From: a virus
Virus record (IMG/VR): IMGVR_UViG_3300033155_001866
Span: 1-29,977 of that record
Reading direction: 5' to 3' (one strand)
Length of the DNA stretch: 29,977 bases
A program made the translations under genes and the position numbers. Positions 319-25,909 of the stretch are shown here, in pieces. The number at the start of each line of letters is the position of its first letter. Within the stretch, counting starts at the first letter, position 1. The notes beneath the pieces were generated by a model. The model had not been told where the DNA came from, did not search any database, and saw nothing but the letters and a program-made list of their open reading frames with translations.

Positions 319-777
319 TTGTTTCTATTCAGAGCTAAAGACCAAGATAGGCTAAATACCTGTTGTGCGGATTTAATTTCGCTTTTTACGGAAGTTATTA
401 AGCACCGAGCTTGCAGAATCCTTAAAGGTAGGCGCGGTAAAAGAGAACAAAACGAGGCTTTCGATGCGAATAGATCAAAAGTCAAATACCCAAACAGTAA
501 GCATAACAAAGTCCCATCTGAAGCCGTTGACGCCGCCCCCGATCCTATCCCCAAAAATTGGGGAGAAGTCCACTGGAAACTCATTCCTAAAAGACACAGA
601 AAACAAATTAAAAGAGAAGTTAAAGAACTACATAAGTTTTATGAGTTCGCAGGATATATCAAGGGGATTGCTGACTGCAAAGGGATTAAAATACGGCAGG
701 GCCACGATTGGGATGGTGACCATGAGTTTAGTGACCAAAGCTTTGATGATTTAATACACACAGAAACAAAAGAATAA
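319..777 (+). CDS. M15-family peptidase endolysin, TTG start
   Basis: A 152-residue peptidoglycan peptidase of the VanY / L-alanyl-D-glutamate (M15) type, expected to cut the peptide stems of the cell wall at the end of infection. Visible signatures are an RGKREQNEAF stretch (37-48), the zinc motif SKHNKVPSEAVD with His62 and Asp71, and the C-terminal HDWDGD...DQSFDDLIH with Asp residues near 130-134 and zinc ligand His147. Length matches phage M15 endolysins. The start is TTG at 319: it follows a GAAGGGG ribosome site, the frame upstream closes at 292, and the N-terminus FLFRAKDQDRLNTC resembles family N-termini. There is no signal peptide, so it should need the holin-like protein downstream. 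Confidence 0.88.
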   Translation: MFLFRAKDQDRLNTCCADLISLFTEVIKHRACRILKGRRGKREQNEAFDANRSKVKYPNSKHNKVPSEAVDAAPDPIPKNWGEVHWKLIPKRHRKQIKREVKELHKFYEFAGYIKGIADCKGIKIRQGHDWDGDHEFSDQSFDDLIHTETKE

Positions 778-816
778 AGAGCATTAACCCGGAGGTATTC
801 TTACAAGGAGCTTAAA

Positions 817-1668
817 ATGTGCAAAATTCTAAGCAACTTATTTAATAAACCGCCCAGCGCGAGCCAACCAAGCGTAGAGGTGGGTGGCAAATACGCTCTA
901 CTTGTTGGCATAAACAAATACAGACCTGATCTTAATTGCGATTTACGCGGGTGTGTAAATGATGTGGAACACCTAAGAACCGTCTTAATTGAACAATTCG
1001 ACTTTAATGCGGATAATATTCGAGTAGTTACAGACGAAAGAGCAACTCACAATAATATTATAGACCGGCTGATATGGCTGGTGGACCATGCGAACAGTGA
1101 GCTTGTGTTTCAATACTCGGGACACGGTTCACAGGTAAGAGATAGGGATGGAGATGAGCTAAACGACGGGTTAGACGAAATCTTATGCCCCCACGATATA
1201 AATTGGGATCTACCGCTTACCGATGATTATTTATCCGAAATATTCAAAGAAATTCCTCAAAATTCATCCCTTACCTGCATAATCGATGCTTGCCATTCCG
1301 GGAGTATGACCCGGAACATCAATAATCCAACAAAACAACGGCCAAGATTCTTAACACCTCCCAGGGATATACAATTCAGAAGCGAATCAAAAGAGCTGCC
1401 TGTAAAGAAAATTGGAACCAGGGTGATAGAACTGAACCATATTCTATTATCGGGCTGCAGGGACGATCAAACATCAGCAGACGCTCATATAAACGACACC
1501 TGGCAGGGAGCTTTCACGCACAATTTAATCAAACATATTCATCCAGCTAAAAGTTGGAGCGATATTTATTCAGACGTTTTACTCGATATTGAGGCAGGAG
1601 GATTTACTCAGGTTCCTCAATTTAATGGCAAAAAGCTTAACGAAAGGCCAATGTTTGGTGGGATATAA
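817..1668 (+). CDS. Metacaspase-like C14 cysteine peptidase
   Basis: A 283-residue caspase-fold protease. Hallmarks in order are KYALLVGINKY (25-35), LRGCVNDV (43-50), the catalytic His in QYSGHGSQ (His103), the acidic DRDGDELNDGLDEILCP segment (109-125) typical of calcium-responsive metacaspases, the catalytic Cys in IDACHSGS (Cys159), SGCRDDQTSADA (212-223) and QVPQFNG (265-271). Both dyad residues are present, so it should be active. Metacaspases cut after Arg or Lys. No signal peptide or partner domain is seen. It has its own AAGGAG ribosome site and lies between endolysin and lipoprotein in a lysis-like cassette, an unusual place for a caspase. Its substrate is unknown. It might target host defence, regulate lysis, or process a virion protein. 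Confidence 0.92.
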   Translation: MCKILSNLFNKPPSASQPSVEVGGKYALLVGINKYRPDLNCDLRGCVNDVEHLRTVLIEQFDFNADNIRVVTDERATHNNIIDRLIWLVDHANSELVFQYSGHGSQVRDRDGDELNDGLDEILCPHDINWDLPLTDDYLSEIFKEIPQNSSLTCIIDACHSGSMTRNINNPTKQRPRFLTPPRDIQFRSESKELPVKKIGTRVIELNHILLSGCRDDQTSADAHINDTWQGAFTHNLIKHIHPAKSWSDIYSDVLLDIEAGGFTQVPQFNGKKLNERPMFGGI

Positions 1669-1690: not shown

Positions 1691-2158
1691 ATGTTTAACA
1701 AAAAGGGCAACATTGTGAAAGTGTTACTGATTTTAAGCATGACAATTTTTTTATTTACAGGCTGTGTCGGCATGAATACGTTTCTTGAATCAGAATCAGG
1801 GCAAGCCGTCATAGACCATGGTGGAATTATTGCCGGGGTGATGGTGGGCTCCAACAACTTGGACAAGATCGACGAAGTGGTTGAGATTTGCGACGCATAT
1901 CTAAAAGCAGATAATGAAACCGTAAGCCAAGCCGCATTGGAGTACGCTGCTACTTATATTTTTAAAAATTACGGGCAGACTCAGCAAACCATGGTTGTCA
2001 TGGCAGAAGTCCAAAAGCTGGTAGGTGTCTTTCTCAAAACTGACGGAACGCTTGGCTTTCTTGATAATTATAATCCGGTGCTATTGGGCAAATTCGTCTT
2101 TTCTTTCCGTAACGGGATGGCTATGGCTACACCGAGACAAATTAAATTTGTTCGTTGA
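1691..2158 (+). CDS. Small predicted lipoprotein of the lysis-like module
   Basis: The 155-residue protein starts at ATG 1691, chosen because it follows an AAAAGGGGG ribosome site and opens directly onto a lipoprotein signal: Lys-rich start, hydrophobic VLLILSMTIFLF, then TGC with lipidated Cys25. The open frame extends further upstream inside the caspase gene but lacks a good start there. The mature part has no recognised domain and contains an alpha-helical stretch (NNLDKIDEVVEICDAYLKAD). A lipoprotein next to endolysin and holin could be an outer-membrane spanin, but it is longer than usual o-spanins and not Pro-rich, so that is only a possibility. Confidence 0.72.
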   Translation: MFNKKGNIVKVLLILSMTIFLFTGCVGMNTFLESESGQAVIDHGGIIAGVMVGSNNLDKIDEVVEICDAYLKADNETVSQAALEYAATYIFKNYGQTQQTMVVMAEVQKLVGVFLKTDGTLGFLDNYNPVLLGKFVFSFRNGMAMATPRQIKFVR

Positions 2159-2216: not shown

Positions 2217-2402
2217 ATGACAGGATGGAAAACAAAAGCCGGGTCGTTGGGTATTTTTTTAACTGGCGTCGTAATGATTATTGAAGGCGTTGTGGCAGAT
2301 GTGGTTAATCCAGACAAAATGTATCAAGGTGTAATGGTATGTTTTGGAGCTCTTACAGCTCTTGGAATTGGTCACAAGGTCGAAAAGGCTGCTAAAAAAT
2401 AA
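2217..2402 (+). CDS. Holin-like small membrane protein
   Basis: A 61-residue protein with two hydrophobic segments, LGIFLTGVVMIIEGVVA (about 11-27) and GVMVCFGALTALGIG (about 38-52), and a basic C-terminus HKVEKAAKK. Size, two membrane spans and charged tail fit class II/III holins, which open the inner membrane to the endolysin. Similar small phage membrane proteins of unknown role exist, so the name rests mainly on position within 1.5 kb of the endolysin. An excellent ribosome site (AGGAGG) precedes ATG 2217. Its TAA overlaps the next ATG (TAATG), indicating translational coupling. Confidence 0.65.
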   Translation: MTGWKTKAGSLGIFLTGVVMIIEGVVADVVNPDKMYQGVMVCFGALTALGIGHKVEKAAKK

Positions 2403-2803
2403 TGCTGAGACAGTTAGGTATTAAATACGAAGGGCCAGAAGTCCCCCTACACGCTATCGAAGCTTTTTGGCGAGCAACTAAAGAGGAAATCGATAGCTGT
2501 GCAGGGGGCTGCGGTCCTGGTAAGGTAGGGGACTGGATTGTCCCTGATACAGTTTGGGGCGGATTAAGTATTAAACGGGCCTGACGGATTCATGATTTTG
2601 AAGTGGACGCGGGCGTCCCTAAAGCAATCACAGATACAAAATTTCATATAAACATGAAGATAATCATTTACAGTTGTACCAGATGGCGATGGTTAAAAAG
2701 TCTCAGGATCTCCCAGGCTGATTTTTATTATTTCATGGTTCATCATCTTGGTGATTACAATCGCGCCATAGATAGAAGCTGCAAAGAAATCAATTTTATG
2801 TAA
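2402..2803 (+). CDS. Phospholipase-A2-like phage protein interrupted by in-frame UGA
   Basis: The frame opens at ATG 2402, overlapping the holin-like stop, and reads 60 codons to UGA at 2582-2584, then continues open in the same frame for 72 codons to TAA at 2801-2803. Both halves together resemble a family of roughly 130-residue phage proteins with IVPDTVWGLSI...A-x-RIHDF, reminiscent of the Cys-x-x-His-Asp active site of phospholipase A2, followed by a helix, an RWLK.LR stretch and YYF.V...GDY. UGA takes residue 61, just before RIHD (His64, Asp65), where I recall Cys or a small residue. Either UGA is read through or recoded (Cys or selenocysteine), or this is a recent nonsense mutation. At least seven other genes here end in UGA, so UGA is a normal stop in this phage. 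Confidence 0.6.
2582..2584 (+). other. In-frame UGA codon (candidate selenocysteine/readthrough site or nonsense mutation)
   Basis: UGA followed by C is the leakiest bacterial stop context. It lies directly upstream of the RIHDF motif of the PLA2-like protein, and the downstream frame stays protein-like to a normal stop. See the hairpin at 2605-2618. Confidence 0.5.
2605..2618 (+). promoter_or_regulatory. Hairpin downstream of the UGA, possible bacterial SECIS-like element
   Basis: GGACG (2605-2609) pairs perfectly with CGTCC (2614-2618) around a CGGG loop. The loop begins 25 bases after the UGA and has G among its first two bases. As I recall the general bacterial SECIS rules (loop 16-37 bases after UGA, upper stem at least 4 bp, early G in the loop), this fits. 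A five-bp stem is short and could arise by chance. Confidence 0.3.
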
Positions 2804-2819: not shown

Positions 2820-3035
2820 ATGCCAAGTGTTAAATCAGTTATGAAAACAACAACCGACTATTGGGCTAAAAAGCTCGGGTTAGACCGGGACGTCGAAAAT
2901 CCTCAAAAAAGTAGAACGCTGCGCGAAGCAAGCAAGAAAAAACGGCAGGAAAGATACGGAAAAAGGCTCGGTCATAAAGTGGTCCGGAACCAGAGAAGAA
3001 AAAAGCAGCAGCTTAAGGAATCATACGGGGGGTAA
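2820..3035 (+). CDS. Small basic hypothetical protein
   Basis: A 71-residue, strongly basic protein with no recognised domain. It starts at ATG 2820 behind an AAGAAGGGGAA ribosome site. The second half is Lys/Arg-rich (KKKRQERYGKR, NQRRKKQQ), suggesting nucleic-acid binding or a structural role in small amounts. It follows the UGA-interrupted gene by 16 bp, in the run of accessory genes leading to the packaging module. Confidence 0.6.
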   Translation: MPSVKSVMKTTTDYWAKKLGLDRDVENPQKSRTLREASKKKRQERYGKRLGHKVVRNQRRKKQQLKESYGG

Positions 3036-3434: not shown

Positions 3435-3694
3435 TGGAAAAAGGGTATTTGTCAGCAGAAGCCGGAAGGCTCGCGGGTGGCATTCCTCAAAGGACAGTAC
3501 AATCTTGGACGGAGAAAGGGTTGATATCTCCAGACATTTCAGGGACAACAGGAACGGGCGACAGGCGTAGATATAGTGAGGCCAATATAAAAGAACTTGC
3601 AGAATATCGAATGTTTTTACAGGCGCAAAAGCAGTTAAGAAGAGAGTTTGAATCTAAAATGATTAGAAAAAAGACCGGAAAGTTGAGATTATGA
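3434..3694 (+). CDS. MerR-type helix-turn-helix DNA-binding protein
   Basis: The 86-residue protein is essentially one MerR-like winged helix-turn-helix: YLSAEAGRLAGGIPQRTVQSWTEKGLISP supplies the two recognition helices, and GTGDRRRYSEANIKELAEYR the wing and following helix, with the family's RRYS signature. No effector-binding domain follows, only a basic helix. Small proteins of this type often lie just before terminase genes, where they act as regulator or DNA-recognition component (lambda gpNu1 uses a similar fold). It is coupled to both neighbours: its start overlaps the preceding stop and its end overlaps the next start by four bases. Confidence 0.8.
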   Translation: MEKGYLSAEAGRLAGGIPQRTVQSWTEKGLISPDISGTTGTGDRRRYSEANIKELAEYRMFLQAQKQLRREFESKMIRKKTGKLRL

Positions 3695-4365
3695 AAGTTA
3701 TTAAGGGCGGAAAAGACAAACCGAAACCAAAAGCCTCTCAGTACGATCACGATTGGGAAGCTATTGAAAATGATCTGCTAACCACAACCATGTCCGTCAG
3801 AGCGATAGGAAGGAAAAACGGAGTATCAGAAGGGGCTATCCGGAAATACATCAAAAAAGAAGGAATTGAGCGAGATTTGAGCCTAAAAGTAAAGGCCGCT
3901 GTTCGGAGCAAACTGGTACGCAACCCGGTACGCAAAAAGACACAAGTGCGCACCGATGCGAAAACTAAAATGCGTACTCAAAAACCGACCGAAAAGGAAA
4001 TTGTTGAAGCGGCAGCAGAGGAAAACATTTCATTCATTCAAACCTGGGATGATCTTTTCCTGAAGACCGTTGAGGTTGGTAAGAAGCTAAAAGCTGAGAT
4101 TTTTAAAAAGGTTAAGGTTAAGCTTGAAGCAAAGAACGGGAAAAGGGCGAGAACCATTACCCTTGACAAGTTAGATTCAAAGGAAAAGGCTACGGTTTAT
4201 AATTCAGTGGTTAAAGCTGAAACGAGCGTGTTTGAGGCTATGAGAAAGAACCTGGGTGTTGATGAAACAGGAGGGTTGGAAGCGCCTGCAATCTTAACCG
4301 ATTACGGAACAGGCGATTATGATGCGGAACTCAAGAGAAGAAAAACCGGAACCGATAGCGTATAG
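3691..4365 (+). CDS. Candidate terminase small subunit
   Basis: The 224-residue protein has an N-terminal helix-turn-helix (about 22-60: DWEAIENDLLTTTMSVRAIGRKNGVSEGAIRKYIKKEGI), a basic linker (RNPVRKKTQVRTDAKTKMR) and a helical C-terminal half with KATVYNSVVKAETSVFEAMRKNLGV, a pattern seen in phage small terminases that bind pac/cos DNA and recruit the ATPase. It lies immediately before the large terminase and overlaps its start by 47 bp in another frame. The assignment rests on domain layout and position rather than a diagnostic motif. Confidence 0.78.
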   Translation: MKVIKGGKDKPKPKASQYDHDWEAIENDLLTTTMSVRAIGRKNGVSEGAIRKYIKKEGIERDLSLKVKAAVRSKLVRNPVRKKTQVRTDAKTKMRTQKPTEKEIVEAAAEENISFIQTWDDLFLKTVEVGKKLKAEIFKKVKVKLEAKNGKRARTITLDKLDSKEKATVYNSVVKAETSVFEAMRKNLGVDETGGLEAPAILTDYGTGDYDAELKRRKTGTDSV

Positions 4366-5956
4366 AGCAGAGCCAACAATATCTTGTTTTCACAGCTCAA
4401 ACGCATTTGTAAGAAACATTAGAGGTCCAATAGGATCTGGCAAAACGGTAGGATGCTGTTTTGAGATATTTAAAAGAGGAAAAGATCAGATCCCATACGA
4501 CAACATTCGAGCTACCAGGTGGGCGCTAATTAGAAACACCTACGGTGAGCTAAGGACAACCACTGTAAAAACATGGCTTGAATGGTTCGAATATTATACA
4601 AAAATAACATATTCTCAGCCCATAGAGGGGCTTTGTTCTTTGAAATTGTCTGACGGTTCTTTTGTGCGAATAGAACTATGGTTTATTGCACTGGACCAAC
4701 CACGGCATGTGAAGAAGCTTAAATCGTTGGAGCTAACCGGTGCGTTCCTGAATGAAGTTTGTGAAATAGACAAATCCATTCTTGATATGTGTACCGGTCG
4801 TGTAAACAGATATCCAGCGAAGCGCCGAGGCGGTCCAACGTGGAGTGGAATTATTACAGACACAAACGCAATGGATGACGATCATTGGTATTATGAGCTA
4901 TCAGAAGAGAACACTCCGATAAATTGGGAGTTTTTTACTCAGCCGCAGGCTTTATTAAAAACAGACGATGTGTCGAAAATCCCTCGGGCAATTCCCATGG
5001 TAAAAGCAAGAGAAGGAAAAAAAATCTTTTACTATTACCAGAATCCACTTGCAGAAAACGTGGACAACCAACCAGCAGGAGTCAATTATTGGTTAAATCA
5101 AGTCCCAGGGAAGACTCAAAACTGGATTAATGTATATGTTCTCAATAAATATGGAACCGTATCGTCGGGCCGGCCGGTTTATCCGGAATATGACGATGAT
5201 ACCCATTGTGCAAAACAAAACATTAAGCCGGACAAAGAGTTCGGAATTATATTTGGGTGGGATTTTGGGCTAACTCCTGCTTTTACTATTTTACAACTCG
5301 TTACTAATCAGTTGCGGATTATTGACGAGCTGTACGTTCCTATGCACGCTTCTATGGGAATCAGACAGTTTGCCAGGGATGTTGTTAGACCGTATGTGCT
5401 TAAACATTATCTTTGGTGGATAAAAGAAGCGGAAAGAACCGGTCAGGAATTGGTCATGTCGAGCGGAGACCCTGCCGGTAAAATAAGAAGCCAAACGGAT
5501 GAAGTAACGTGCCTGCAGGTTTTAAATGAGATTTTTAAAGAAGAGGGGATTGTTTCAAGACCAACTCACACAAATTCGACGATTGCGAGGCTGGACGCCG
5601 TGCAGAAGTTTTTAATTAATTTTCCGGACGATAATCCAGCTTTCCTATTATCGCCAAAATGTAAATTTTTAAGAAAGGGTTTCAGGGGCCGCTGGACATA
5701 TGAAAGAATACAGATCGGTGGAGCCGAAAAAAGGTATAAAGACAAACCTGACAAATCTATTTATTCCCATATCCAAGAAGCAGCTCAATATGGAGCTATG
5801 AGAGCAAGAGAAGTTATGTATAAGGTTGACGAAGAAAAGGAAGATCGAAGCAAGCATATAGAAAAGCGGAAAACTTTGGACAATATTGGCCAGGTTGCAT
5901 GGTCAGAACTTGACGAAATCAGGGAGAAATTAAACGAAGAGGAGGATTATTACTAA
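4319..5956 (+). CDS. Terminase large subunit (packaging ATPase and nuclease)
   Basis: The 545-residue packaging motor has Walker A GPIGSGKT (36-43), a hydrophobic strand ending in acidic residues LTGAFLNEVCE (139-149) as Walker B with catalytic Glu, and a C-terminal RNase-H-like nuclease domain starting at IIFGWDFG (Asp315), with SSGDPAG (Asp384) and DKSIYSHIQEAAQYGA (Asp478 onward) as later acidic positions. It docks on the portal, pumps DNA into the prohead and cuts concatemers. Two adjacent ATGs (4319, 4322) are possible starts. Full length for the family, with no disruption. The stop overlaps the next small gene by one base. Confidence 0.95.
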   Translation: MMRNSREEKPEPIAYRAEPTISCFHSSNAFVRNIRGPIGSGKTVGCCFEIFKRGKDQIPYDNIRATRWALIRNTYGELRTTTVKTWLEWFEYYTKITYSQPIEGLCSLKLSDGSFVRIELWFIALDQPRHVKKLKSLELTGAFLNEVCEIDKSILDMCTGRVNRYPAKRRGGPTWSGIITDTNAMDDDHWYYELSEENTPINWEFFTQPQALLKTDDVSKIPRAIPMVKAREGKKIFYYYQNPLAENVDNQPAGVNYWLNQVPGKTQNWINVYVLNKYGTVSSGRPVYPEYDDDTHCAKQNIKPDKEFGIIFGWDFGLTPAFTILQLVTNQLRIIDELYVPMHASMGIRQFARDVVRPYVLKHYLWWIKEAERTGQELVMSSGDPAGKIRSQTDEVTCLQVLNEIFKEEGIVSRPTHTNSTIARLDAVQKFLINFPDDNPAFLLSPKCKFLRKGFRGRWTYERIQIGGAEKRYKDKPDKSIYSHIQEAAQYGAMRAREVMYKVDEEKEDRSKHIEKRKTLDNIGQVAWSELDEIREKLNEEEDYY

Positions 5957-6063
5957 TGGCAAAAGGAACACCAAAAAGAGACGGAAGCGGCAAAGGGCGT
6001 AGGGCCAACCAGGGACGTGGAGGTTGTAAACCAACACAAAAAAGCGGAAAGGGGAAGAAATGA
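5956..6063 (+). CDS. 35-residue Gly/Lys-rich small protein
   Basis: The sequence begins MAKGTPKRDGSGKGRRANQG and continues RGGCKPTQKSGKGKK. Although tiny, it is bounded by overlapping codons on both sides: ATG shares a base with the terminase TAA, and its TGA overlaps the next ATG. I recall similar Gly/Lys/Arg-rich peptides beside terminase genes in other phages. It is highly basic and probably unstructured, perhaps nucleic-acid binding. Function unknown. Confidence 0.65.
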   Translation: MAKGTPKRDGSGKGRRANQGRGGCKPTQKSGKGKK

Positions 6064-6290
6064 GTATAGAGATAATCATACTTTCCGGAATTATCATTTT
6101 CCTGGTGATATTAAACATTATTGAAAAATGGCAATTCACCAAAAGGGAGAGCGACCTGTTTGACCGATTAATGGCTAAGTCTCACGATGATTACGCTGCA
6201 AACAAGGTAAGGATGTCAACCATAAAGAAAAAGCCACAGCACCTTGGGGATGTAAGCAAGCCCGAAGAGGTTGTCTTTCCGGTGGATTAA
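6060..6290 (+). CDS. Small single-pass membrane protein
   Basis: Seventy-six residues: an N-terminal transmembrane helix (EIIILSGIIIFLVILNII, about 4-21), then a cytoplasmic-looking segment KRESDLFDRLMAKSHDDYA and a charged tail. This layout (N-terminal helix, then DLxxRLMAKxxxDY) is common for small phage proteins near packaging genes with no known role. The ATG overlaps the preceding TGA. Its end sequence GGTGGATTAAATG is repeated exactly at the end of the next gene. Confidence 0.65.
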   Translation: MSIEIIILSGIIIFLVILNIIEKWQFTKRESDLFDRLMAKSHDDYAANKVRMSTIKKKPQHLGDVSKPEEVVFPVD

Positions 6291-8181: not shown

Positions 8182-10259
8182 ATAAGAAAACAGACAGAGA
8201 AGATAAACTTTCAGACGGATATGTGATAAGAACGGTAGAAGATTTCTTTAATAACGATCAGGACATATCAACTCAAATGCTTCATAAAGTCGTGTTCAGG
8301 AACATTCTTTATTATATGGGCGAGCAGTGGATGGATTGGGTCAAGTCTGAACAGATTTTCAGGCGCAGTATAAGGCAAATATCTGTTCCAACTCCGGTAT
8401 CGAATATTATAAGAGACTATGTTCGATCCATGAAAGCCCTGATATTAAACAAAGACTTTTCCGTTACGATATGGCCCAACAGTGACAACGCCGATGACGC
8501 CGAAGCTGCAAAACTTGGTGAGCTGCTGTTGTCCGATATGGAATCGGCGAATGATGAAGAATTCCTTGACGAAAAGGAAAAAGCTGCGATGTGGACAGTT
8601 TTGGCCGGCACTACGTTTATGAGAACCTTCCCTGAGCTTGATCGTGGAGAATGGTATCTTGACGCCAATGGAGATATGGCCAGGACCGGCGAAATTGTCA
8701 CAGAAAGTGTTCCAATATTTAATGTTGCTGTTGATCTTATGGGCGACAAGCTGAACCAAAAAAGATGTATCGGCGTCAAATCAGTTAAACCGCGAGAATG
8801 GGTTGAGGATACTTTTAAAGTAATCCTATCCACAGACGAGGAAGAGCAGGCTACCAACTATCAGAAAAAATTAATGAAAATGGTTGGGAGCGTATCACCA
8901 TGGAAAGGTGCTGGGCTTGAATCTTTAACCGATATTGAAGATGATGATATGGTTGTCTTTAAGGAAATCGAATATAAACCCGACCTTCAGTATCCAAATG
9001 GAAGATTTGTGGCTGCATGCTGTGGTCAAGTTTGCTTTGCTCACGATAAAATGCCAATTCCTATTTTAGACGGCAAGTGGGAATACTCGCTCACAGATTT
9101 CCATTATTATTATGTTCCTGGGCGGTTTTGGTCTGATGCGGGAGTAAACGATCTTATCAGTCCTCAGAACACAATAAACCAGATCGATCAAGCTCTTGAA
9201 ATTAACCGGAAATCACTTGGCCGAAACATGGTTGTCCTTGGGTCTGATGTTGAAATACAGCGTTTAACTAAGTTCGGAGAACACTTGCTCGTCTTAAAGT
9301 ATGACGCCCTGTTAAGCGGTGGGGCAAAACCAGAATTTAAGCAAGGCACTCAACTTCCCAATCAGATCCTCGATGAAAGAAACATTCATAGGCAGGTTGC
9401 CCAAGACGCAGGCGGAGATCCAAAAAGCGTAATGAAGGGTCAAGCTCCAAGTACTCAGGCGTCTGGTGTTCTTGTTGACACACTCAGGGAAGCCGCAGAA
9501 CAGGGACACACCCCGGATGTTATGAGGTTTTATCGTGGGATTAAAAGAACAAAGAGAAAAAGCCTTATACTCGCGAAATATACATACACTGAAGAGCGAA
9601 TGATTAAGGTCGCCGGTAAAGGCAAAAGAATTGAAATAAAATCTTTTGTTGGTGCGGACTTGAGGGATAATACTGACGTAAGGCTCGAATTAAGTTCAGG
9701 AATAGCCTCTACGAAAACAGGCCAGGTCCAGATGTTCCTTAAATTAATAGAGTCTGGGTTCTTTTCAATGGATTCACCAATAGAACCCGAATTCAGAGAA
9801 GAATTAATGCGCCGCATGGGGCTTTCCGGGTTTAGCGACAAAACTAATACCGACGTGCAGAGAGCCCAGAGCGAAAACTCCTTGCTTTCTCATACTGATG
9901 AAGAAAACACCTACGAAACAACTGTCGTAAAAACTCCACAAGGGGAAAAAGAAATTGACTTTATTCCAGGGATATTCTTAACCATGAACAATCCAATGGC
10001 AACGCCTGAAAATCCACAAGATTCTATTGTTTTAAGTCAAGACCCGATGTTTAAGTTTGACGATCATATGATTCACTATGGCGTCCACAGGGAAAAGATT
10101 TTAAGCCCTGAATTTAAAGATATGAGCCCGGATGCTCAAGCTATCTTAATCGGCCATACTGATATCCACCACTTGATGATGCAAAGGCAAGCGGAGGAAG
10201 AAATGCAGCGAGAAGCAGCTATGGAAGAACAAGCTGGAGGCGAAGAAGCGCGAAGATGA
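8178..10259 (+). CDS. Portal protein (P22-like podoviral type)
   Basis: The 693-residue protein follows the terminase block and precedes scaffold and capsid, the standard portal position. The N-terminal region (ILYYMGEQW, then PTPVSNIIRDYVRSMKALIL, 71-91) and the central FWSDAGVNDLISPQNTINQIDQALEINRKS match portal proteins that form the dodecameric DNA channel. The later GGDPKSVMKG...QASGVLVDTLREAAEQ segment is also characteristic. The length and acidic, Gln/Glu-rich C-terminus fit P22-type portals with a barrel extension. No truncation. Coupled to the preceding small gene by an ATGA overlap. Confidence 0.9.
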   Translation: MNKKTDREDKLSDGYVIRTVEDFFNNDQDISTQMLHKVVFRNILYYMGEQWMDWVKSEQIFRRSIRQISVPTPVSNIIRDYVRSMKALILNKDFSVTIWPNSDNADDAEAAKLGELLLSDMESANDEEFLDEKEKAAMWTVLAGTTFMRTFPELDRGEWYLDANGDMARTGEIVTESVPIFNVAVDLMGDKLNQKRCIGVKSVKPREWVEDTFKVILSTDEEEQATNYQKKLMKMVGSVSPWKGAGLESLTDIEDDDMVVFKEIEYKPDLQYPNGRFVAACCGQVCFAHDKMPIPILDGKWEYSLTDFHYYYVPGRFWSDAGVNDLISPQNTINQIDQALEINRKSLGRNMVVLGSDVEIQRLTKFGEHLLVLKYDALLSGGAKPEFKQGTQLPNQILDERNIHRQVAQDAGGDPKSVMKGQAPSTQASGVLVDTLREAAEQGHTPDVMRFYRGIKRTKRKSLILAKYTYTEERMIKVAGKGKRIEIKSFVGADLRDNTDVRLELSSGIASTKTGQVQMFLKLIESGFFSMDSPIEPEFREELMRRMGLSGFSDKTNTDVQRAQSENSLLSHTDEENTYETTVVKTPQGEKEIDFIPGIFLTMNNPMATPENPQDSIVLSQDPMFKFDDHMIHYGVHREKILSPEFKDMSPDAQAILIGHTDIHHLMMQRQAEEEMQREAAMEEQAGGEEARR

Positions 10260-18526: not shown

Positions 18527-20059
18527 ATGACACATTACTATGTAGATAGCAATACGGGGTCGAACGGGGATACAGGTTTAACCCAAGCCTTGGCATGGGC
18601 TACCATAGAATATGCTGTTGAATCTGGAAGTTTAGTTGCTGGTGATATTGTGTGGATAAGAAGAATCCATGCTGAATATTCTGGAGCTCCAACTTCTAAT
18701 ATAGTACCTGCGTATAGCGGAACAAGACTCAATCCAATTAAATTGATTGGGTGGCCAAGAGCAGCTCTTCCAAACACAACTATTACAGCGGCAACTTGGG
18801 TAAATGGAAGCACAACCGTTGATTTAGTAGTTGGTGTAACTCTTAGTAGAGAAGCTCACTGTGGAAGATGGATAACTGCCCCTAATGGGAATAAGTTTCT
18901 TATTACGCAGATAACCGATTCAAATACTTTGATAATTGATAGAGAATATTCTGGTGCAGGTGTTTCCTCAACAAATGGTAAGTTTCAAATAGAAGCTGAT
19001 GAAGATCATTCAAGCCGTCCAGCAGATGTTGATGGCTGGGATAGTGACGCAGATGACCTTCCTGTTGTAGATTTTCAAAGTGCAGCTTATTATTATCAAA
19101 TGAATGTAGATTTTAACATACTAAAGAATATAGAGTTTAAAAACTCTGGAACTTTTGTTGTTGTAAGTGTGTCATATGGTGGTATAGTCGGGTGTCTTCT
19201 TTCCTCCACTTATAATGGAGCACTTATTTATCCAAATTATAGTTTTATGGATAGATGTATAGTTACAGGTTCAGGAAGTGGAGGTTCTCAAATTGGCATA
19301 TCTGGGTTGGCAACTCGTGTTAGTAATTGTGCTATTTATAATTGTGGTAGTTATGGTTTTCAGGGAGGAAGTTCATACCTTGAAAATGTGAATATTGGAG
19401 TAGAACAAGTTAATGTGGGTGCTGATATAGCGCTTATGAATGGCCACCAAAATATCTATGGTAGAGATATAAAGCTCGGAAGTGCTACACCGTTTAGTCA
19501 TAATTTTATGCCAAGTATTCTTCCTCATAGTCTTAGAGTACAGATTGAAAACTACCAAAAAATACTTGGCAACCATAAAACTTTCCGTGGGGTTCAAACT
19601 CTTACCAGTAAAGATGTTGTAGCTGGCTCAGGAGACCCGTATAAAAGAACTGATGGAGCAGATAAAATAATAGAAGTAGATTGCAGTGTCAGCGCTACAT
19701 ACGGAGCTTCTATTAAAGAGCGAGCAGTTGTAATCTTTGAGCATGAATTTGAAACAGACACAACAAGCAAAGCCTACAGATATTATATTAACTGTAAAGA
19801 TCTGTCTCTCACTGCTTCGGAACTCTGGCTTGAAGTTGAGTACGTAGACTCCTATGATGATACAAGTGAGTATACGATAACCAAGGAAGAATCAGATGAA
19901 ACCTGTGCCCTTCGTGGAAGTGTCTCTGACTGGACTCAATATATAGAGGTAACTGGCATAGCTCCTGCAGTTGCTTCAAAAGTAAGAATAAAATGCTTTG
20001 TAGCTAAGTATGATGTAGATGGTTATATCTATATCGACCCCCTGGCGGTGGTGTCATAG
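18527..20059 (+). CDS. Right-handed beta-helix tailspike-like protein
   Basis: The 510-residue protein has the start typical of pectate-lyase-type beta-helix proteins: HYYVDSNTGSNGDTGLTQALAWATIEYAVE, with GDIVWI soon after. Irregular rungs follow (LKNIEFKNSGTFVVVSVSYGGIVGCLL, YSFMDRCIVTGSG, VSNCAIYNCGSYGF), then a C-terminal beta domain (about 380-510). Such proteins bind or cut host polysaccharide. No catalytic residues can be assigned. Base use looks more AT-rich than the capsid genes, as often seen for exchanged host-range genes. Start ATG 18527 follows TTTAGGTG. Confidence 0.75.
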   Translation: MTHYYVDSNTGSNGDTGLTQALAWATIEYAVESGSLVAGDIVWIRRIHAEYSGAPTSNIVPAYSGTRLNPIKLIGWPRAALPNTTITAATWVNGSTTVDLVVGVTLSREAHCGRWITAPNGNKFLITQITDSNTLIIDREYSGAGVSSTNGKFQIEADEDHSSRPADVDGWDSDADDLPVVDFQSAAYYYQMNVDFNILKNIEFKNSGTFVVVSVSYGGIVGCLLSSTYNGALIYPNYSFMDRCIVTGSGSGGSQIGISGLATRVSNCAIYNCGSYGFQGGSSYLENVNIGVEQVNVGADIALMNGHQNIYGRDIKLGSATPFSHNFMPSILPHSLRVQIENYQKILGNHKTFRGVQTLTSKDVVAGSGDPYKRTDGADKIIEVDCSVSATYGASIKERAVVIFEHEFETDTTSKAYRYYINCKDLSLTASELWLEVEYVDSYDDTSEYTITKEESDETCALRGSVSDWTQYIEVTGIAPAVASKVRIKCFVAKYDVDGYIYIDPLAVVS

Positions 20060-20571
20060 TGGAATACGATCTTGAATATTACGAGCGCACATTGCTCTTA
20101 AATAGCTCGACGGCTGAAAAAATATCCAATATACGGTGGGATTGGGTTAAATGTGCTGATGCAAAAACCGCACTCGATTACGGGTCCGGTGTCGGCTGGT
20201 TTAGAGCTTTCAGGCCGCCTGGGACAGAAGTTGATACATGCGATATAGGTGTTGCCCCGCAAACAGGAATTACAAGGGATGAATACGACCTTATAACGCT
20301 GTGGGACGTTTTAGAGCATGTATTGGAGCTCGGAGTAATAAAAGTTCTTTTACAGCAAGTTAAGTGGGCGGCTGTTACTGTTCCGGTGCTGCCTGATGGC
20401 AAATACCTTCATAAGTGGAAACATTATAAACCAGGCGAGCATATTCGATATTACACAGAGGAATCGTTGGTTTATTTTTTCAATAATAGTGGATTTGAGC
20501 TCGTTAAAAGCGGATATCCGGAGTGTCCACCCAGGGAAGATATATTTTCTGCATTATTCAGGAAAAATTAG
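20059..20571 (+). CDS. SAM-dependent class I methyltransferase
   Basis: A 170-residue Methyltransf_23-like protein. Motif I, AKTALDYGSGVGWFRAF (about 34-50), binds S-adenosylmethionine; YDLITLWDVLEHVLELG (about 76-92) is motif IV with the LEHV signature; and HIRYYTEESLVYFFNNSGFEL is the typical C-terminal segment. It starts with GTG overlapping the tailspike TAG (TAGTG). Relatives methylate sugars, lipids or small molecules. Within this island a glycan substrate is likely but unproven. Confidence 0.85.
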   Translation: MEYDLEYYERTLLLNSSTAEKISNIRWDWVKCADAKTALDYGSGVGWFRAFRPPGTEVDTCDIGVAPQTGITRDEYDLITLWDVLEHVLELGVIKVLLQQVKWAAVTVPVLPDGKYLHKWKHYKPGEHIRYYTEESLVYFFNNSGFELVKSGYPECPPREDIFSALFRKN

Positions 20572-21434
20572 TGGAAAAATTAATAATAAAACATGGCCTT
20601 GATATTGGCGATACAGCAATGCTCACCATTGCGGTCAGAGATTTACACTTAGCACATCCTGGTAAATACGAAACAGACGTTAGAACCAGGTGGCCGGATC
20701 TGTGGTTAAACAATCCATATGTAACTAAAGGAGAAGGGGGCCGAGAGTTAGATATAGGATATCCGCTAATCCAAAACCCGGGGTCTCAATCGTTTTCTGA
20801 TGGGTTCAGGCTGGATCTGGCCGATCAGCTCGGTGTTGATATTCCATTTACGTCAATGAATATCGATTTACACCTGAGCCTTGAAGAAAAAAAGCGCAAT
20901 ATTGTTAATGAGAAATTTATGTATTCTGGAAAATATTGGGTTCTTAACGGCGGGTATAAGGCAGATGCAATCCTGAAATATTATCCATTTTGGCAGGAAG
21001 TTGTTGATTTACTAAAAAACGACATACAGATTGTCCAGGTGGGGTCAAATTCCGACGTTCACACTGAGCTTGAGGGTGTTATGAGCCTTGTGGGGGAAAC
21101 AAGCCTAAGAGAGCTTATACAGATTATTTATCGGTCAGAGGGCGTTCTTTGCCCTATTTCATGCCATTTTGTTTTAGCAACAGCCTTTAATAAGCCTGCG
21201 GTTATCGTTGCGGGGGGAAAGGAGCCTCCAAGATGGCAAATGTATAATTATCATAGATATTTGTCTGTAAGCGGGTGTCTTCCGTGTTGTATAAACGGTG
21301 GATGCTGGACGGCTAAATATCAAGATTGTAAGTCAAGGGTCGGAGGGGTCCCGAAATGTTTTGCAATGATAAGCCCGAATGAGGTTGCGAGAAATGTAAT
21401 GTTATATTATAATGGTGGAGCTTTAACCCATTAA
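20571..21434 (+). CDS. GT9-type (heptosyltransferase-like) glycosyltransferase
   Basis: The 287-residue protein starts at GTG 20571 (again TAGTG) and opens MEKLIIKHGLDIGDTAMLT, then AVRDLHLAHPGKYETDV, the N-terminal GD-x-x-M-x-x-A signature of ADP-heptose:LPS transferases. The C-terminal nucleotide-sugar domain shows EGVLCPISCHFVLATAFNKPAVIVAGGKEPPRW. A Cys cluster near the end (CLPCCINGGCW...DC...KCF) is typical of a phage and genomic-island subfamily. The longer open frame starts upstream inside the methyltransferase and lacks a ribosome site. Predicted to add a heptose-like sugar to a surface or virion glycan. Confidence 0.78.
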   Translation: MEKLIIKHGLDIGDTAMLTIAVRDLHLAHPGKYETDVRTRWPDLWLNNPYVTKGEGGRELDIGYPLIQNPGSQSFSDGFRLDLADQLGVDIPFTSMNIDLHLSLEEKKRNIVNEKFMYSGKYWVLNGGYKADAILKYYPFWQEVVDLLKNDIQIVQVGSNSDVHTELEGVMSLVGETSLRELIQIIYRSEGVLCPISCHFVLATAFNKPAVIVAGGKEPPRWQMYNYHRYLSVSGCLPCCINGGCWTAKYQDCKSRVGGVPKCFAMISPNEVARNVMLYYNGGALTH

Positions 21435-21442
21435 TTCAAAGG

Positions 21443-21479
21443 TTATGTAACATATTCGCATAGCGACTATATTGCATGA
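21443..21479 (+). promoter_or_regulatory. Duplicated promoter/operator-like element, copy 2 (glycan island)
   Basis: TTATGTAACATATTC at 21443-21457, 16 bp, then GCATGA at 21474-21479, followed by AAAGGAGA and ATG 21494. Identical in both blocks and spacing to the copy before the scaffold gene. This is the only sizeable intergenic gap in the island. Confidence 0.6.
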
Positions 21480-21493
21480 CGAAAGGAGAAACC

Positions 21494-21838
21494 ATGGAAA
21501 CAGAAAAACCGGTTGTAAGATTAGAAGCAGCTCTTAAAAAGGCAGAGGACACGGCAAAAGAGATTATTAAAAAGATTGAGGAGCCAAAACTTACGGCAAC
21601 AGAACAAGTCATTAAGGACATGAACGAAAAAATAGAAGAAGCGGAAGAAAGCGGAAGCTATTTTGTGGCAATAACCCGAAAAGAAGGCGAGAAACTACTT
21701 CATTGGCAGGGTCGAATTAATTTTCCGAAGGATGATTGTGCGCACAGCCTGAGAGAACAGTTAAAGCTTGCGCCGTCGATTTTTAAAAACAAAACGGGGA
21801 ATGTTCGCAAGTTCGGACCTTCTAAGCCTGGAGGATAA
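21494..21838 (+). CDS. Hypothetical protein, coiled-coil N-terminus
   Basis: The 114-residue call starts at ATG 21494, six bases after AAAGGAGA; an in-frame ATG at 21476 overlaps the GCATGA block and is less likely. Residues 8-55 are a Glu/Lys-rich helix (LEAALKKAEDTAKEIIKKI, VIKDMNEKIEEAEES), followed by a small beta domain (GSYFVAITRKEGEKLLHWQGRINFP). No family recognised. It is the first gene after the second regulatory element and its stop overlaps the next ATG. Confidence 0.6.
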   Translation: METEKPVVRLEAALKKAEDTAKEIIKKIEEPKLTATEQVIKDMNEKIEEAEESGSYFVAITRKEGEKLLHWQGRINFPKDDCAHSLREQLKLAPSIFKNKTGNVRKFGPSKPGG

Positions 21839-22638
21839 TGAAATTAATAACAGACTACGACCAGGCCAAAGTATCTGATTATCTTATAAAAGAATCACCA
21901 AAGAAAGTATGTCTTATATTTTGGCATGGTCTTGGTGACGTTATTATGTTTATGTCCCCTCTCTCAGAGCTTAGGTCACTTTTTCCGGGGACACAAATTG
22001 ACATAGCCCTTCAAGATGGAGTCGGCCAAGAAGATTTATTCCCAAAAGGGTTGTTGATTACCACGCCCAACGAACCGATAGAGGGTTACGACTACACCTT
22101 TCAAATTCACTTCCCAATGTCTGAACATTTAGCTGGCGCCTATACCAAACAGGGTTGGTGCTGCGTTCAAGAATTGGGAATCGATCCGGTTGACGATTAC
22201 CTAAAATTAAAAGAATATCCAAGTAAATTGGTAGCCTGTCACTTTCAGGCAACCGCATTGCCTGATCCAATAAACCCCTCCGAAGAAACCACAGAACAAA
22301 TATGGAAAGAAATCATCGAGGCTGGCTTTATTCCGATAGAGGCCTTCTTTCAACACAGGTATTATAATCCGGTAAATGCTAAGTTTGGGTTTATTGATTG
22401 TACGATCAGGAGCGCAAAGCCGTCCATTAAAACTTTAATAGGTCTTTATCAGCATTGTGCGGCGTCTATTTGCGTTGCGTCCGGAAATTTACCGGTAAGC
22501 CTCGCAGTTATGCCTGGAAAAACACTGTATCTGCAAAAATCTTATAGCATAAAATGCTATACAAAACAGGATATTGCAACCATTGACATTAACAAATACG
22601 AGGAAGGAAGCGTAAAAGAATGGCTCGACAAATTATAG
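21838..22638 (+). CDS. Second GT9-like glycosyltransferase
   Basis: A 266-residue protein with KKVCLIFWHGLGDVIMFMSP (22-41), the GLGD N-terminal motif of heptosyltransferases, then LRSLFPGTQIDIALQDG. The C-terminal half carries SIKTLIGLYQHCAASICVASGNLPVSLAVMPGKTLYLQ, the equivalent of the acceptor/donor cleft. It is a shortened member (GT9 enzymes are usually over 300 residues). Starts at a TAATG overlap. Its 3' end overlaps the next methyltransferase start by 19 bases. Confidence 0.72.
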   Translation: MKLITDYDQAKVSDYLIKESPKKVCLIFWHGLGDVIMFMSPLSELRSLFPGTQIDIALQDGVGQEDLFPKGLLITTPNEPIEGYDYTFQIHFPMSEHLAGAYTKQGWCCVQELGIDPVDDYLKLKEYPSKLVACHFQATALPDPINPSEETTEQIWKEIIEAGFIPIEAFFQHRYYNPVNAKFGFIDCTIRSAKPSIKTLIGLYQHCAASICVASGNLPVSLAVMPGKTLYLQKSYSIKCYTKQDIATIDINKYEEGSVKEWLDKL

Positions 22639-23129
22639 AAGATCCTACCGAGTTGGGTTATTCAGGTTGGGGCGCTGGGAGTATCGGAGAAAAGGATTGG
22701 AAGGCTATTAAGAAAATCATAGAGGACTACAATGTGACCAGCATCCTTGAGGTTGGAGTGGGACTTTCAACCTTCTTAATGTCTCAAATGGTTCCGGTGT
22801 ATGTCGGGTACGATACTCTCCAAAGACACTTAGATTGGATGAAGCCTCGGCTTCTGAATCATGTAGAACTAAGACTGTGGGACGGAGAGGAACCGTTTGA
22901 TCCTGGTGCTGACTTTGATATGGCCTTTATCGATGGTCCTACCGGAGCGTTTAATCGCAAACCCAGCTTTGTGAGTGTGCTTGGTCGGGCAGAGATTATA
23001 TGTATTCACGATGCAGGTGATATCTGGAGAGAAAAGTGGAGATTTAAGCTTGATCCTAAAGGCGAATATAAAGCGATTTTCCCTGGAAGCAGATTTTCAG
23101 CATGGAAAAAAAGGAAAATGAATGGCTAA
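22620..23129 (+). CDS. Class I methyltransferase-like protein A
   Basis: The 169-residue protein has DWKAIKKIIEDYNVTSILEVGVGLSTFLMS (26-55): helix plus SAM-binding loop ILEVGVGLST. FDMAFIDGPTGAFNRKPSF is the strand-4 acidic motif and IICIHDAGD a later motif, recalling Methyltransf_24-type enzymes. Shares fold and several residues with the product at 24033, so the two look paralogous. No metal or catalytic residue can be assigned. Start overlaps the previous gene by 19 bp. Confidence 0.65.
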   Translation: MARQIIEDPTELGYSGWGAGSIGEKDWKAIKKIIEDYNVTSILEVGVGLSTFLMSQMVPVYVGYDTLQRHLDWMKPRLLNHVELRLWDGEEPFDPGADFDMAFIDGPTGAFNRKPSFVSVLGRAEIICIHDAGDIWREKWRFKLDPKGEYKAIFPGSRFSAWKKRKMNG

Positions 23130-24045
23130 ATACGCTTTCGTTGTTTCAGACAGCGGTTATACATACGGGATAAATGCCCTTATTAATGGACTTAAATATT
23201 ATGGGAATGATGTTACTTTCCATCATTTGTATTGGGGGCCTAAAGCGGAAGCGTGGTCTAAGTCTGTTCAAGGCTCTGGTAAGTTTGATTTTAAATCCAT
23301 AAACTTAAAAGACTTGGTAAATGATCCGAGATACCCAAAAAAAACAGGAAAAATGAGTCCAGCCTGGGTTTGCAAATTCTATCGTTATTTCTATTGTGCT
23401 TTGGAACTTTCCGAATATGACGCGGTTTGCATAATGGACGCCGACATGATGGTGGTTAATAATATTATGCAATGGTTTGAGGTAGCTGCGTGTTCGGATA
23501 AATTAATTATGCCAAACAACGATATGTCACCACAGCAACATGATTGCTATGCTGTTGATGATATAGGCGGGGGCTCGAGTCCACCTGTTCACAATATGCC
23601 TCTTTTCTTTCGACCCTCCTCTACGACAAAATCAATATTCCTTTCTCTCCTTAGAATAAGCGAGGAAAGGCAAATATCTGACATGGCGTCTATAAATCAC
23701 GCCATTATAGAAGCTGGGCAGATGGATAACATATTGATATTGCCAAACTACTTATGGCTGATATCGGTTCAGTATAATGTTCGCTTGGCTCTTCGGGAAA
23801 TTGGAGATTTGAGATACTTGCTGCTACACAAAAGCGGCGATAAGGTTAATTCAGTTCATAGGCCGTGGTGGTCTCCAGACTACTGCAAAAAATTTATCGA
23901 GGGTTGTTCTACTGAGCTAACCTGGGGTATTTCTTTTAATAATATCACTCTATTTTGGGATATGCTTTGTTTTTTTAACACTCAGCTTTACCACAAAATT
24001 CCATGGGATATAGAGTTCCCGGAGGTAAAAGCATGGAAACAATAG
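23122..24045 (+). CDS. GT8-like glycosyltransferase A (GT-A fold)
   Basis: A 307-residue protein. AFVVSDSGYTYGINALINGLKYYGND (5-30) is the donor-binding N-terminus; KFYRYFYCALELSEYDAVCIMDADMMVV (85-112) contains the DxD metal motif (Asp106, Asp108). HNMPLFFRPS and DMASINHAIIEA resemble later GT8 motifs, and SVHRPWWSPDY near the C-terminus parallels HGKWW in the product at 25910. Predicted to transfer a sugar from a nucleotide donor. Start ATG 23122 overlaps the preceding gene by eight bases. Confidence 0.75.
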   Translation: MAKYAFVVSDSGYTYGINALINGLKYYGNDVTFHHLYWGPKAEAWSKSVQGSGKFDFKSINLKDLVNDPRYPKKTGKMSPAWVCKFYRYFYCALELSEYDAVCIMDADMMVVNNIMQWFEVAACSDKLIMPNNDMSPQQHDCYAVDDIGGGSSPPVHNMPLFFRPSSTTKSIFLSLLRISEERQISDMASINHAIIEAGQMDNILILPNYLWLISVQYNVRLALREIGDLRYLLLHKSGDKVNSVHRPWWSPDYCKKFIEGCSTELTWGISFNNITLFWDMLCFFNTQLYHKIPWDIEFPEVKAWKQ

Positions 24046-24641
24046 AGTGTAGTATGTGCGGAAGCACCTGTGAAGCTAAAAAAGCCACAACCCTTATGGA
24101 ATTCCAGCTTTGCAACTGGTGTGGCTGGTTAATGAAAAGTACAGTGAGTTCGATGGTTCTGAGCCGGAACATGAAAATTTTGTGGGGAAACCGGAGCCTT
24201 GAGAAAAGGGATTGGGTTGAGCTAAAGGATTTTTTAAAAATCAACGATATTCGATCCGTTCTGGAATATGGAGTAGGGCTTTCCACCGAATTGTTATTAT
24301 TGGAGGGGTGTCAGGTATTTAGCTTAGAGTGTATTGATTTCTATGCTCGCATGTTTTGCAGGAAGGTCGGGCAAAACGTACTTCATTATGAAGCAGAACA
24401 CGGACCGCCGGAATTGTCTGAAAAGTATCCGTTTTCTTTGATTGATTCTCCAAAAAACGGAAGAAAGAAAGAAGCGGAACACGCTATCCGACACACCACT
24501 CGTTTTATTTATATGCACAACCCTTTACAAGATCAGATAGACGTTCTGGAGCCTGCTGGCTGGGTTCCAATAACATCTTTAAGTCAATACCATGGGTACT
24601 ATCGTTTTTATGAAAGGAAGGCAAAAAGTGGACTTGCATAG
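24033..24641 (+). CDS. Zinc-ribbon methyltransferase-like protein B
   Basis: The 202-residue call starts at ATG 24033, nine bases after GGAGG; the open frame extends to 24003 but that start lacks a good ribosome site. An N-terminal zinc ribbon is formed by CSMC (6-9) and CNWC (27-30). Then DWVELKDFLKINDIRSVLEYGVGLSTELL (about 60-88) gives the SAM loop EYGVGLST, and YPFSLIDSPKNGRKKEAEHAIRH a strand-4 acidic motif. Looks like a paralogue of the product at 22620 with an added ribbon. Substrate unknown. Confidence 0.6.
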   Translation: METIECSMCGSTCEAKKATTLMEFQLCNWCGWLMKSTVSSMVLSRNMKILWGNRSLEKRDWVELKDFLKINDIRSVLEYGVGLSTELLLLEGCQVFSLECIDFYARMFCRKVGQNVLHYEAEHGPPELSEKYPFSLIDSPKNGRKKEAEHAIRHTTRFIYMHNPLQDQIDVLEPAGWVPITSLSQYHGYYRFYERKAKSGLA

Positions 24642-25206
24642 TGGGATTTTAGATTTTGGACAAAATTTCAGAGAAGTTCTTTCTGGAAATCACAATCACA
24701 GGTCGGGTTCTTTCTTTACAGCCCCTCTTATGTATTGCTGGGCTAAACAAATAAAGGCCAAGAAAATACTTGAAGTGGGTGTTGGTTCAGGAGGCGCATC
24801 TTACTGGCTTGGTCACGCAGCACAAGAGCTGGACGGAAAATATTTTGGTATAGAATTGCACGAAGGCCGGGTTAAGGCACTGTCTGAGCTTATGGACACA
24901 TTTAAAATAAATCATCAAATATGGGCCATGGATAGCTTAAAGATGACGGATGAGTTTATAGGGAAACATATAGGCAGAATCGACCTTGCCTATTTGGACG
25001 GAAACCATAATCTTGAGTCAATTTGGCACGAAATAACAACTATATGGCCTTATTTGAGAATCAACGGCTATGTTTTTATACACGACATCCACTCAGTTTC
25101 AAAGGAGGGTTGGGCGAAAGTTAAGTCCGAGTTTGAAGAAACTTTTGAAATATTTGGTAATTCGGGAACCGGTGTTGTGAGAAAGTTAGCAGAAAAAAGG
25201 AAATAA
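24628..25206 (+). CDS. Class I methyltransferase (Methyltransf_24 / CmcI-like)
   Basis: The 192-residue call starts at GTG 24628, six bases after GGAAGG; in-frame ATGs at 24592 and 24610 would add up to 12 residues. KKILEVGVGSGGASYWLG is the SAM loop; GKYFGIELHEGR carries the acidic residue that holds the SAM ribose; RIDLAYLDGNHNLESIWHEITTIWPYLRINGYVFIHDIHS is the characteristic CmcI-type stretch with metal-binding Asp and His candidates. Such enzymes act on sugar rings or hydroxyl groups. No truncation visible. Confidence 0.8.
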   Translation: MDLHSGILDFGQNFREVLSGNHNHRSGSFFTAPLMYCWAKQIKAKKILEVGVGSGGASYWLGHAAQELDGKYFGIELHEGRVKALSELMDTFKINHQIWAMDSLKMTDEFIGKHIGRIDLAYLDGNHNLESIWHEITTIWPYLRINGYVFIHDIHSVSKEGWAKVKSEFEETFEIFGNSGTGVVRKLAEKRK

Positions 25207-25207
25207 A

Positions 25208-25900
25208 ATGAGCAAAATCGGAGTTTTAATAACATCACACCCAGGGCATAAGATATTTATTAAAGAAACCTTAAAGCACTATGCAGAAATAGCAAAGCTG
25301 CATCCGGTTGTTTGGGGTTGGGACAGCACTCCTGATACTTTCAGGCATGAATTGCCAGACAATATTGAGCTTATGCCTTTGGGTAGAAGATACGGCCTTC
25401 AGGAAGGGGAAAGGCTGCAATTATTAAAAGGAGCTGAAAAACTCAAAGAAAAGGGCTGTGATTATATGCTGAAAACAGCCGGGGATTACATTATCAGGAA
25501 ACCAGACAGCTTAAGCCTGCTTATCGAGTATATGGGAGATGATGATTTCTTGTCTATGCACGCACAACCAAGAGAGTATGCTCTCGGAACAGCGATCTTT
25601 TTTTGTAAAACCGAGGCTCTTATCAAAATTATAAATTATGTTGCTGAAGGCGGAACCGTCTCTATTCCTATTAAATCCGGGCAAGTAGTACCCAAAACAA
25701 TAGAGTGCCAATTAGGAGTATCGCTTAAAGAAAACGGATATAATCGTGCGACACAACTAAGACCATGGTGGGGTGAAATTATAGGGCTTAGGGATCTTCA
25801 AAGAGAATGGATTATGAAAACAGGTAAAAAGATGGGAGCTGCTTGGGAAGAGGGCCAAAAAGAATACGACTTAACCGAGGAACAGTTAAACCAACTATAA
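25208..25900 (+). CDS. Glycosyltransferase-like protein, GT-A candidate
   Basis: The 230-residue protein reads MSKIGVLITSHPGHKIFIKETLKHYAE, a GT-A-like opening, and GCDYMLKTAGDYIIRKPDSL (85-103), where a DxD would normally sit but only AGD is found. TAIFFCKTEALIKIINYV and QLRPWWGEIIGLRD follow; the WW motif recalls the other two GT-A proteins here. The missing DxD means it may be a GT2-like, metal-independent or inactive member. Starts two bases after the preceding stop, in the same transcript. Confidence 0.55.
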   Translation: MSKIGVLITSHPGHKIFIKETLKHYAEIAKLHPVVWGWDSTPDTFRHELPDNIELMPLGRRYGLQEGERLQLLKGAEKLKEKGCDYMLKTAGDYIIRKPDSLSLLIEYMGDDDFLSMHAQPREYALGTAIFFCKTEALIKIINYVAEGGTVSIPIKSGQVVPKTIECQLGVSLKENGYNRATQLRPWWGEIIGLRDLQREWIMKTGKKMGAAWEEGQKEYDLTEEQLNQL

Positions 25901-25909
25901 GGGGTAAAT

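Follow-up and report, generated by a model that had tools for sequence, protein, structure and literature searches.

A phage-lineage metacaspase in a putative mobile lysis cassette that includes a probable selenoprotein resembling phospholipase A2

The window analysed here (a whole virus record of 29,977 bases) contains an open reading frame at 817–1668 that encodes an intact and apparently active metacaspase. On balance, and by a narrow margin over an even chance, we favor a reading in which this phage-lineage protease is built into a mobile lysis cassette and acts as a lysis switch on a cassette partner. The cassette comprises genes for the metacaspase, a lipoprotein, a holin-like protein with two transmembrane segments (two-TM), and a phospholipase A2 (PLA2)-like protein, and it was found in five uncultivated phages (the window phage, L002, L006, L007, and L146). 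An unexpected result was that one cassette gene, interrupted by an in-frame TGA, likely encodes a phage selenoprotein.

Metacaspase gene and its phylogenetic origin

The gene at 817–1668 (plus strand) encodes a type I metacaspase of 283 aa and is preceded by the Shine-Dalgarno sequence AAGGAG (805–810, plus strand), located 6 nt 5′ of the ATG; a ribosome site had been noted in the preliminary description and is present. The protein matched the Pfam Peptidase_C14 profile (PF00656; E = 6.3e-30) from profile position 2 to 228 of 233 (226 of 233 positions), and its top match among solved structures was yeast Mca1 (4f6o; E = 6.4e-29), with the p10 part aligned too; the protein carries a C14 caspase domain with both the p20 and p10 parts. 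His103 (1123–1125), Cys159 (1291–1293), and Asp157, the expected S1-pocket acid, were unchanged in all copies of an alignment of seven phage proteins; together with the Pfam match, this conservation bears out the earlier claim of a His103/Cys159 dyad within intact metacaspase motifs. An N-terminal prodomain is a feature of many, but not all, type I metacaspases; none was found in the alignment, where the domain starts after only about 24 residues, and we label the protein type I-like because its p20–p10 linker is short. The predicted structure was of modest to weak quality (pLDDT 59), and a fold search still ranked metacaspases first. The window and L002 proteins share 90% aa identity, with dN of 0.06 against dS of 0.5–0.7 (dN/dS about 0.1), indicating purifying selection.

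When 84,980 genomes of bacteria and archaea were scanned, 201 metacaspase relatives were recovered, with a best full-length identity of about 49%; by eye, the contig neighbors of the best bacterial relatives looked chromosomal. In a maximum-likelihood tree, eight phage copies (window, L002, L006–L010, and L016) clustered without any bacterial row (98/89), although a bacterial member of this clade may exist because sampling consisted of pattern hits only. No C14 gene and no lipoprotein were found in 13 other relatives of the window phage identified by capsid protein (MCP), many of them fragmentary; L146, a structural relative, retains the metacaspase. The phage-only clade and the retention in L146 indicate that the window metacaspase is a phage-lineage gene and not, as the preliminary description had allowed, a recent stray bacterial gene lacking from related phages.

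Further, more divergent metacaspases of phages fall in other lineages. Several phage copies, inside the clade and outside it, have features of their own. The metacaspase of the clade member L016 (4516–6594) contains an intein (PF14890, 6.5e-21, with HNH_3) that splits the catalytic His motif exactly between its SGHG and SQ parts; in L123, it is the terminase large subunit (3466–5559) that also bears an intein (PF14890, 1.5e-9). Metacaspases with an N-terminal transmembrane anchor were observed in L008 (3678–4613) and L009 (5839–6792), and several other phage metacaspases have short hydrophobic or amphipathic N-termini. In the lineage of L128, L129, L131, and L132, an ORF for a YkuD-like L,D-transpeptidase lies directly upstream, with HSP20-like and ClpS genes downstream. 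A minor head protein (Phage_Mu_F) of L138 (1605–3167) has a C-terminal HExxH zinc-peptidase-like part, with a weak Pfam match only.

Gene content, order, and mobility of the cassette

Directly upstream of the window metacaspase lies a gene (319–777, plus strand; start codon uncertain) for an M15-type endolysin (L-Ala-D-Glu/D-Ala-D-Ala peptidase-like), which matched PHROG 465 (1.3e-15) and had no Pfam hit. The downstream gene (1691–2158, plus strand) encodes a lipoprotein with lipobox LFTGC and a C-terminal ATPR that is kept in all five cassette phages; the placement between endolysin and lipoprotein is thus as described earlier. Homologues of this lipoprotein are present in L002 (88%), L006 (44%), L007 (41%), and L146 (38%). 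It represents an orphan family: no Pfam, NCBIfam, or PDB profile assigned it to a family, and its structure prediction was uninformative (pLDDT 53). No host was found through the lipoprotein, because searches of 19 metacaspase-bearing bacteria and of 395 genomes of one bacterial phylum, carried out without a positive control, returned nothing. The next gene (2217–2402, plus strand) encodes a 61-aa protein with hydrophobic segments at residues 11–27 and 35–51; as no family matched, we infer its holin-like nature, and positional two-TM counterparts were found in L002 and L007, as well as, by eye, in L146. While these neighbors agree with the preliminary description, its cassette extent needed correction, as the cassette ends at 2803 and includes a missed gene at 2402–2803. 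A small basic protein is encoded just beyond (2820–3035, plus strand), and L146 has a probable homologue in the corresponding position (8275–8484, minus strand; blastn segment 2845–3226, 67%). Elsewhere in the window, a run of probable glycosyltransferase and methyltransferase genes was seen by eye at 20059–26779, and a small Gly/Lys/Arg-rich ORF (MAKGxPKRDGSGKG...) occurs in both the window (5956–6064) and L002 (8876–8984), in different places.

Comparison among phages shows that the metacaspase, lipoprotein, two-TM, and PLA2-like genes move together between phages with unrelated heads. The matching DNA of the window and L002 (84–91% identical) covers the metacaspase, lipoprotein, two-TM, and PLA2-like genes; similarity sets in where the metacaspase starts (window 816) and runs to 2807, where the PLA2-like gene ends, beyond which L002 matches comprise two short pieces only. 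Both phages share an HNH gene, and the endolysin between it and the metacaspase does not match. The L006 and L007 metacaspases (67–69% to the window protein) are surrounded by the lipoprotein homologue (41–44%), two-TM proteins, and the PLA2-like gene in altered order. In L146, which was found through its PLA2-like gene, the window's order recurs (endolysin, metacaspase [58%], lipoprotein, two-TM protein, PLA2-like protein, terminase small subunit). The five phages represent at least three unrelated head modules: portal and capsid DNA is common to the window and L146 (69%), L002 carries a different P22-type portal and terminase, and L006 has an HK97-type portal, an S78 prohead protease, and a capsid gene. 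No spanin pair was identified within the window; an Rz-like match was seen only in L006 and was weak (0.0022).

A TGA-interrupted phospholipase A2-like gene

Two listed ORFs (2402–2584 and 2603–2803) represent one frame split by a TGA at 2582–2584, and the gene was missed at first because of this interruption. Read through the TGA, 2402–2803 (plus strand, 133 codons) is predicted to encode a PLA2-like protein in which Cys37 is TGC (2510–2512), UGA61 is the interrupting codon, and the catalytic His64-Asp65 pair lies at 2591–2596. The family profile matched secreted PLA2 structures in the PDB (1faz, 2.4e-9; also 4aup, 7ygk, and 8k1w), with the His-Asp pair aligned and the Cys three residues before the His corresponding to UGA61 (site 2); Pfam PLA2 matches of relatives fell below cut-off. 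The annotation of a homologue in Vibrio phage 1.097.O names a phospholipase A2 domain. Site 1 (Cys37) falls, by position, in the calcium-loop region, and from general knowledge of PLA2 structures sites 1 and 2 would probably be a bonded pair. Among genomes of the bacterial phylum searched for the lipoprotein, the family gave one weak match, inside a 2439-aa frame. A large phage family (L145–L203) with a PLA2-type HD motif shows weak DUF1353 and PF09056 matches and often adjoins endolysins.

This gene probably encodes a selenoprotein. Whereas the window gene has a single TGA, at site 2, and TGC at site 1, two TGAs occur at identical positions in each of the homologues from L002, L006, L007, and L146; a more distant member, L150, presents TGA at site 1 and TGT (Cys) at site 2, and the Vibrio phage protein has Cys at both. 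We retrieved 59 viral loci with a pattern permitting TGA, TGC, or TGT at site 2, leaving site 1 unselected. In the core alignment of 55 distinct members, site 1 showed 48 Cys and five TGA and site 2 showed 50 Cys and five TGA; TGA was confined to these two otherwise 100% Cys columns, and TAA and TAG were absent. Between the window and L002, synonymous changes were in excess (6 to 0 between the TGAs and 13 to 10 after), showing that selection persists downstream of the TGA.

A bacterial-SECIS-like hairpin (GGACG-CGGG-CGUCC; 2605–2618, plus strand) places its loop 25 nt after the window UGA, and about 1 in 1000 synonymous recodings match it. UGA hairpins were present in all five cassette phages, with the apical loop 21–25 nt past the UGA; the L150 hairpin lacks a G at the loop start. 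Hairpin energies at UGA were stronger than those of the Cys homologues, with p = 0.02 for site 1 and p = 0.0002 for site 2, in comparisons among related, not independent, sequences. They were also stronger than those of most synonymous-codon recodings, against which p ranged from <0.001 to 0.115. The site 2 stems of L006 and L146 have different bases at equal paired positions, and one of these differences replaces A-U by G-C. We consider the hairpins supportive of, but not proof for, selenocysteine.

The TGA could instead reflect readthrough of a stop codon, a gene that is split or decaying, or a recoded genetic code, and two observations lean that way, as neither selenocysteine machinery nor tRNA-Sec was found in the window or L002 record and hairpin support was weak in some members (p of 0.07–0.12). 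We nevertheless regard these explanations as unlikely, given the confinement of internal TGAs to two Cys columns, the selection that continues past the TGA, and the complementary pattern of L150. An altered genetic code for TGA was rejected, because TGA is the normal stop of 5 of the 38 window genes, including those for portal and lipoprotein. No phage selenoproteins were found in the literature searched.

Role of the metacaspase

The strongest argument for a metacaspase role in lysis is that non-homologous endolysins replace one another at a fixed position: the slot upstream of the metacaspase is occupied by the M15-type enzyme in the window, by an Amidase_2 protein in L002, and by a GH24 phage lysozyme in L146, and these three families lie 39 nt before, or overlap, the metacaspase start. 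No endolysin was identified in the L006 and L007 fragments. In L123, which carries a distant metacaspase, an M15 endolysin overlaps the metacaspase start. A lysis role is favored because three unrelated endolysin families lie directly upstream and the other co-travelling genes are lysis-like. In 14 of 59 loci of PLA2-like relatives, a same-strand endolysin-like ORF lay within 0.15–1.8 kb (searched with five query endolysins only). Since PLA2-like genes in other phages thus often adjoin endolysins, we read the entire cassette as one for lysis. The preliminary description had proposed three roles (countering host defenses, timing lysis, and processing a virion protein); bursting of the cell is the best-supported of these, with the other two less favored.

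Most other phage metacaspases (L008–L015 and L114–L136) have no recognised endolysin beside the gene, so the phage metacaspase family is not restricted to lysis; we make no statistical claim that phage metacaspases in general adjoin endolysins, as only two independent lineages do so. The lysis region is a frequent site of accessory gene accumulation, and the metacaspase, perhaps with the lipoprotein, could be a moron that merely sits there and cleaves a host defense or superinfection-related protein. This alternative, which we consider credible but rather unlikely, would fit the rarity of endolysin neighbors elsewhere, the patchy distribution of the metacaspase among MCP relatives of the window phage, a match to the PADLOC caspase model (E = 7.7e-23), and the occurrence of caspase-fold proteases in bacterial antiphage systems (PMC9612521). 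However, in unrelated phages the gene stays linked to those for the lipoprotein, the holin-like protein, and the PLA2-like protein, which exceeds what a free-floating moron would show, and the position immediately after three unrelated endolysins also argues against it. An accessory or stress-type protease acquired from bacteria, with a function such as host takeover in place of lysis, appears improbable; bacterial homologues do exist (the best at about 49%) and related phage metacaspases lie near HSP20, ClpS, and ClpX genes (L127–L132), but the latter belong to a different lineage and the window copy sits in the phage-only clade and the lysis cassette. Although phages use proteases in head maturation and the metacaspase is located in the late region, cleavage of a head or tail protein is very improbable, because L006 already encodes a dedicated prohead protease (S78) next to its HK97 capsid gene, and the cassette occurs with unrelated heads.

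Under the lysis reading, the layout would be any peptidoglycan hydrolase, the metacaspase, an outer-membrane-type lipoprotein, the two-TM holin-like protein, and the PLA2-like probable selenoprotein, and late in infection these would together burst a Gram-negative cell. The hydrolase would cut the wall, while the lipoprotein and phospholipase may open the envelope instead of spanins. The metacaspase, putatively Arg/Lys-specific by its conserved S1 acid, would serve as the lysis switch by trimming a cassette partner; candidate cut sites are the C-terminal ATPR of the lipoprotein and, in the PLA2-like protein, the basic N-terminus. Sites 1 and 2 of the latter are possibly bridged by a diselenide. 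We put forward only tentatively, as somewhat less than an even chance, the complete scheme, in which metacaspase-run lysis involves a phospholipase A2 with UGA-encoded selenocysteine, the disulfide between calcium loop and catalytic helix having become a diselenide (a selenosulfide in the window phage) and a protease triggers envelope collapse.

Comparison with known systems

The usual account of phage lysis involves holin, endolysin, and spanin. The window cassette resembles canonical holin-endolysin-spanin cassettes in its tandem endolysin, two-TM holin-like protein, and lipoprotein, but adds a metacaspase and a PLA2-like protein, while a spanin pair was not among the genes identified. With type I metacaspases (yeast Mca1/Yca1 and Candida glabrata Mca1; MEROPS C14) the window protein shares the p20/p10 caspase fold, the His/Cys dyad, the S1 Asp, and the short p20–p10 linker; it differs in being phage-encoded, in having a short N-terminus in place of the prodomain, and in its location in a lysis cassette. 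Phage-related metacaspase operons have been noted in Clostridium botulinum (PMC3501461). No relevant paper on the role of phage metacaspases was found in the literature searched, in agreement with the earlier statement that no settled role is known.

Bacterial antiphage systems that combine a caspase-like protease with a gasdermin likewise place a C14 protease beside a candidate membrane-acting partner, but here the system is phage-encoded and groups the protease with a lipoprotein, a two-TM protein, and a PLA2-like protein. A gasdermin partner was rejected, as none was found among the metacaspase neighbors by Pfam or PADLOC. Bacterial gasdermins are cut near the C-terminus by caspase-like proteases (PMC9612521), which offers an analogy. 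LypABC, required for lysis in the Caulobacter GTA system (PMC13236601), is a precedent for proteases running particle release; the Caulobacter crescentus system resembles the proposed one in protease-dependent lysis that releases phage-like particles, but LypA and LypC are trypsin-like proteins that the host encodes, an ATPase is their partner, and holin-endolysin genes are not seen in C. crescentus.

Secreted phospholipases A2 (Streptomyces violaceoruber 1faz, fungal group XIII; PF09056) have the same His-Asp pair and the Cys three residues before the His, but the window protein is phage-borne, has no visible signal peptide, and has TGA at conserved Cys sites. Bacterial selenoproteins are similar in having UGA at conserved Cys positions and a downstream hairpin with G in the loop; the present case differs in being a phage gene with two UGAs at a likely bonded pair.

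If confirmed, the UGA gene would be a phage selenoprotein, unusual for a phage, and one of few natural examples in which two selenocysteines pair in a structural bond; phage genes of this kind are split or lost by standard gene calling. The caspase-family fold is used by bacteria and animals in cell suicide, and a caspase-family protease in a lysis cassette would arm the attacker with this same fold and would turn lysis into a proteolytically switched event.
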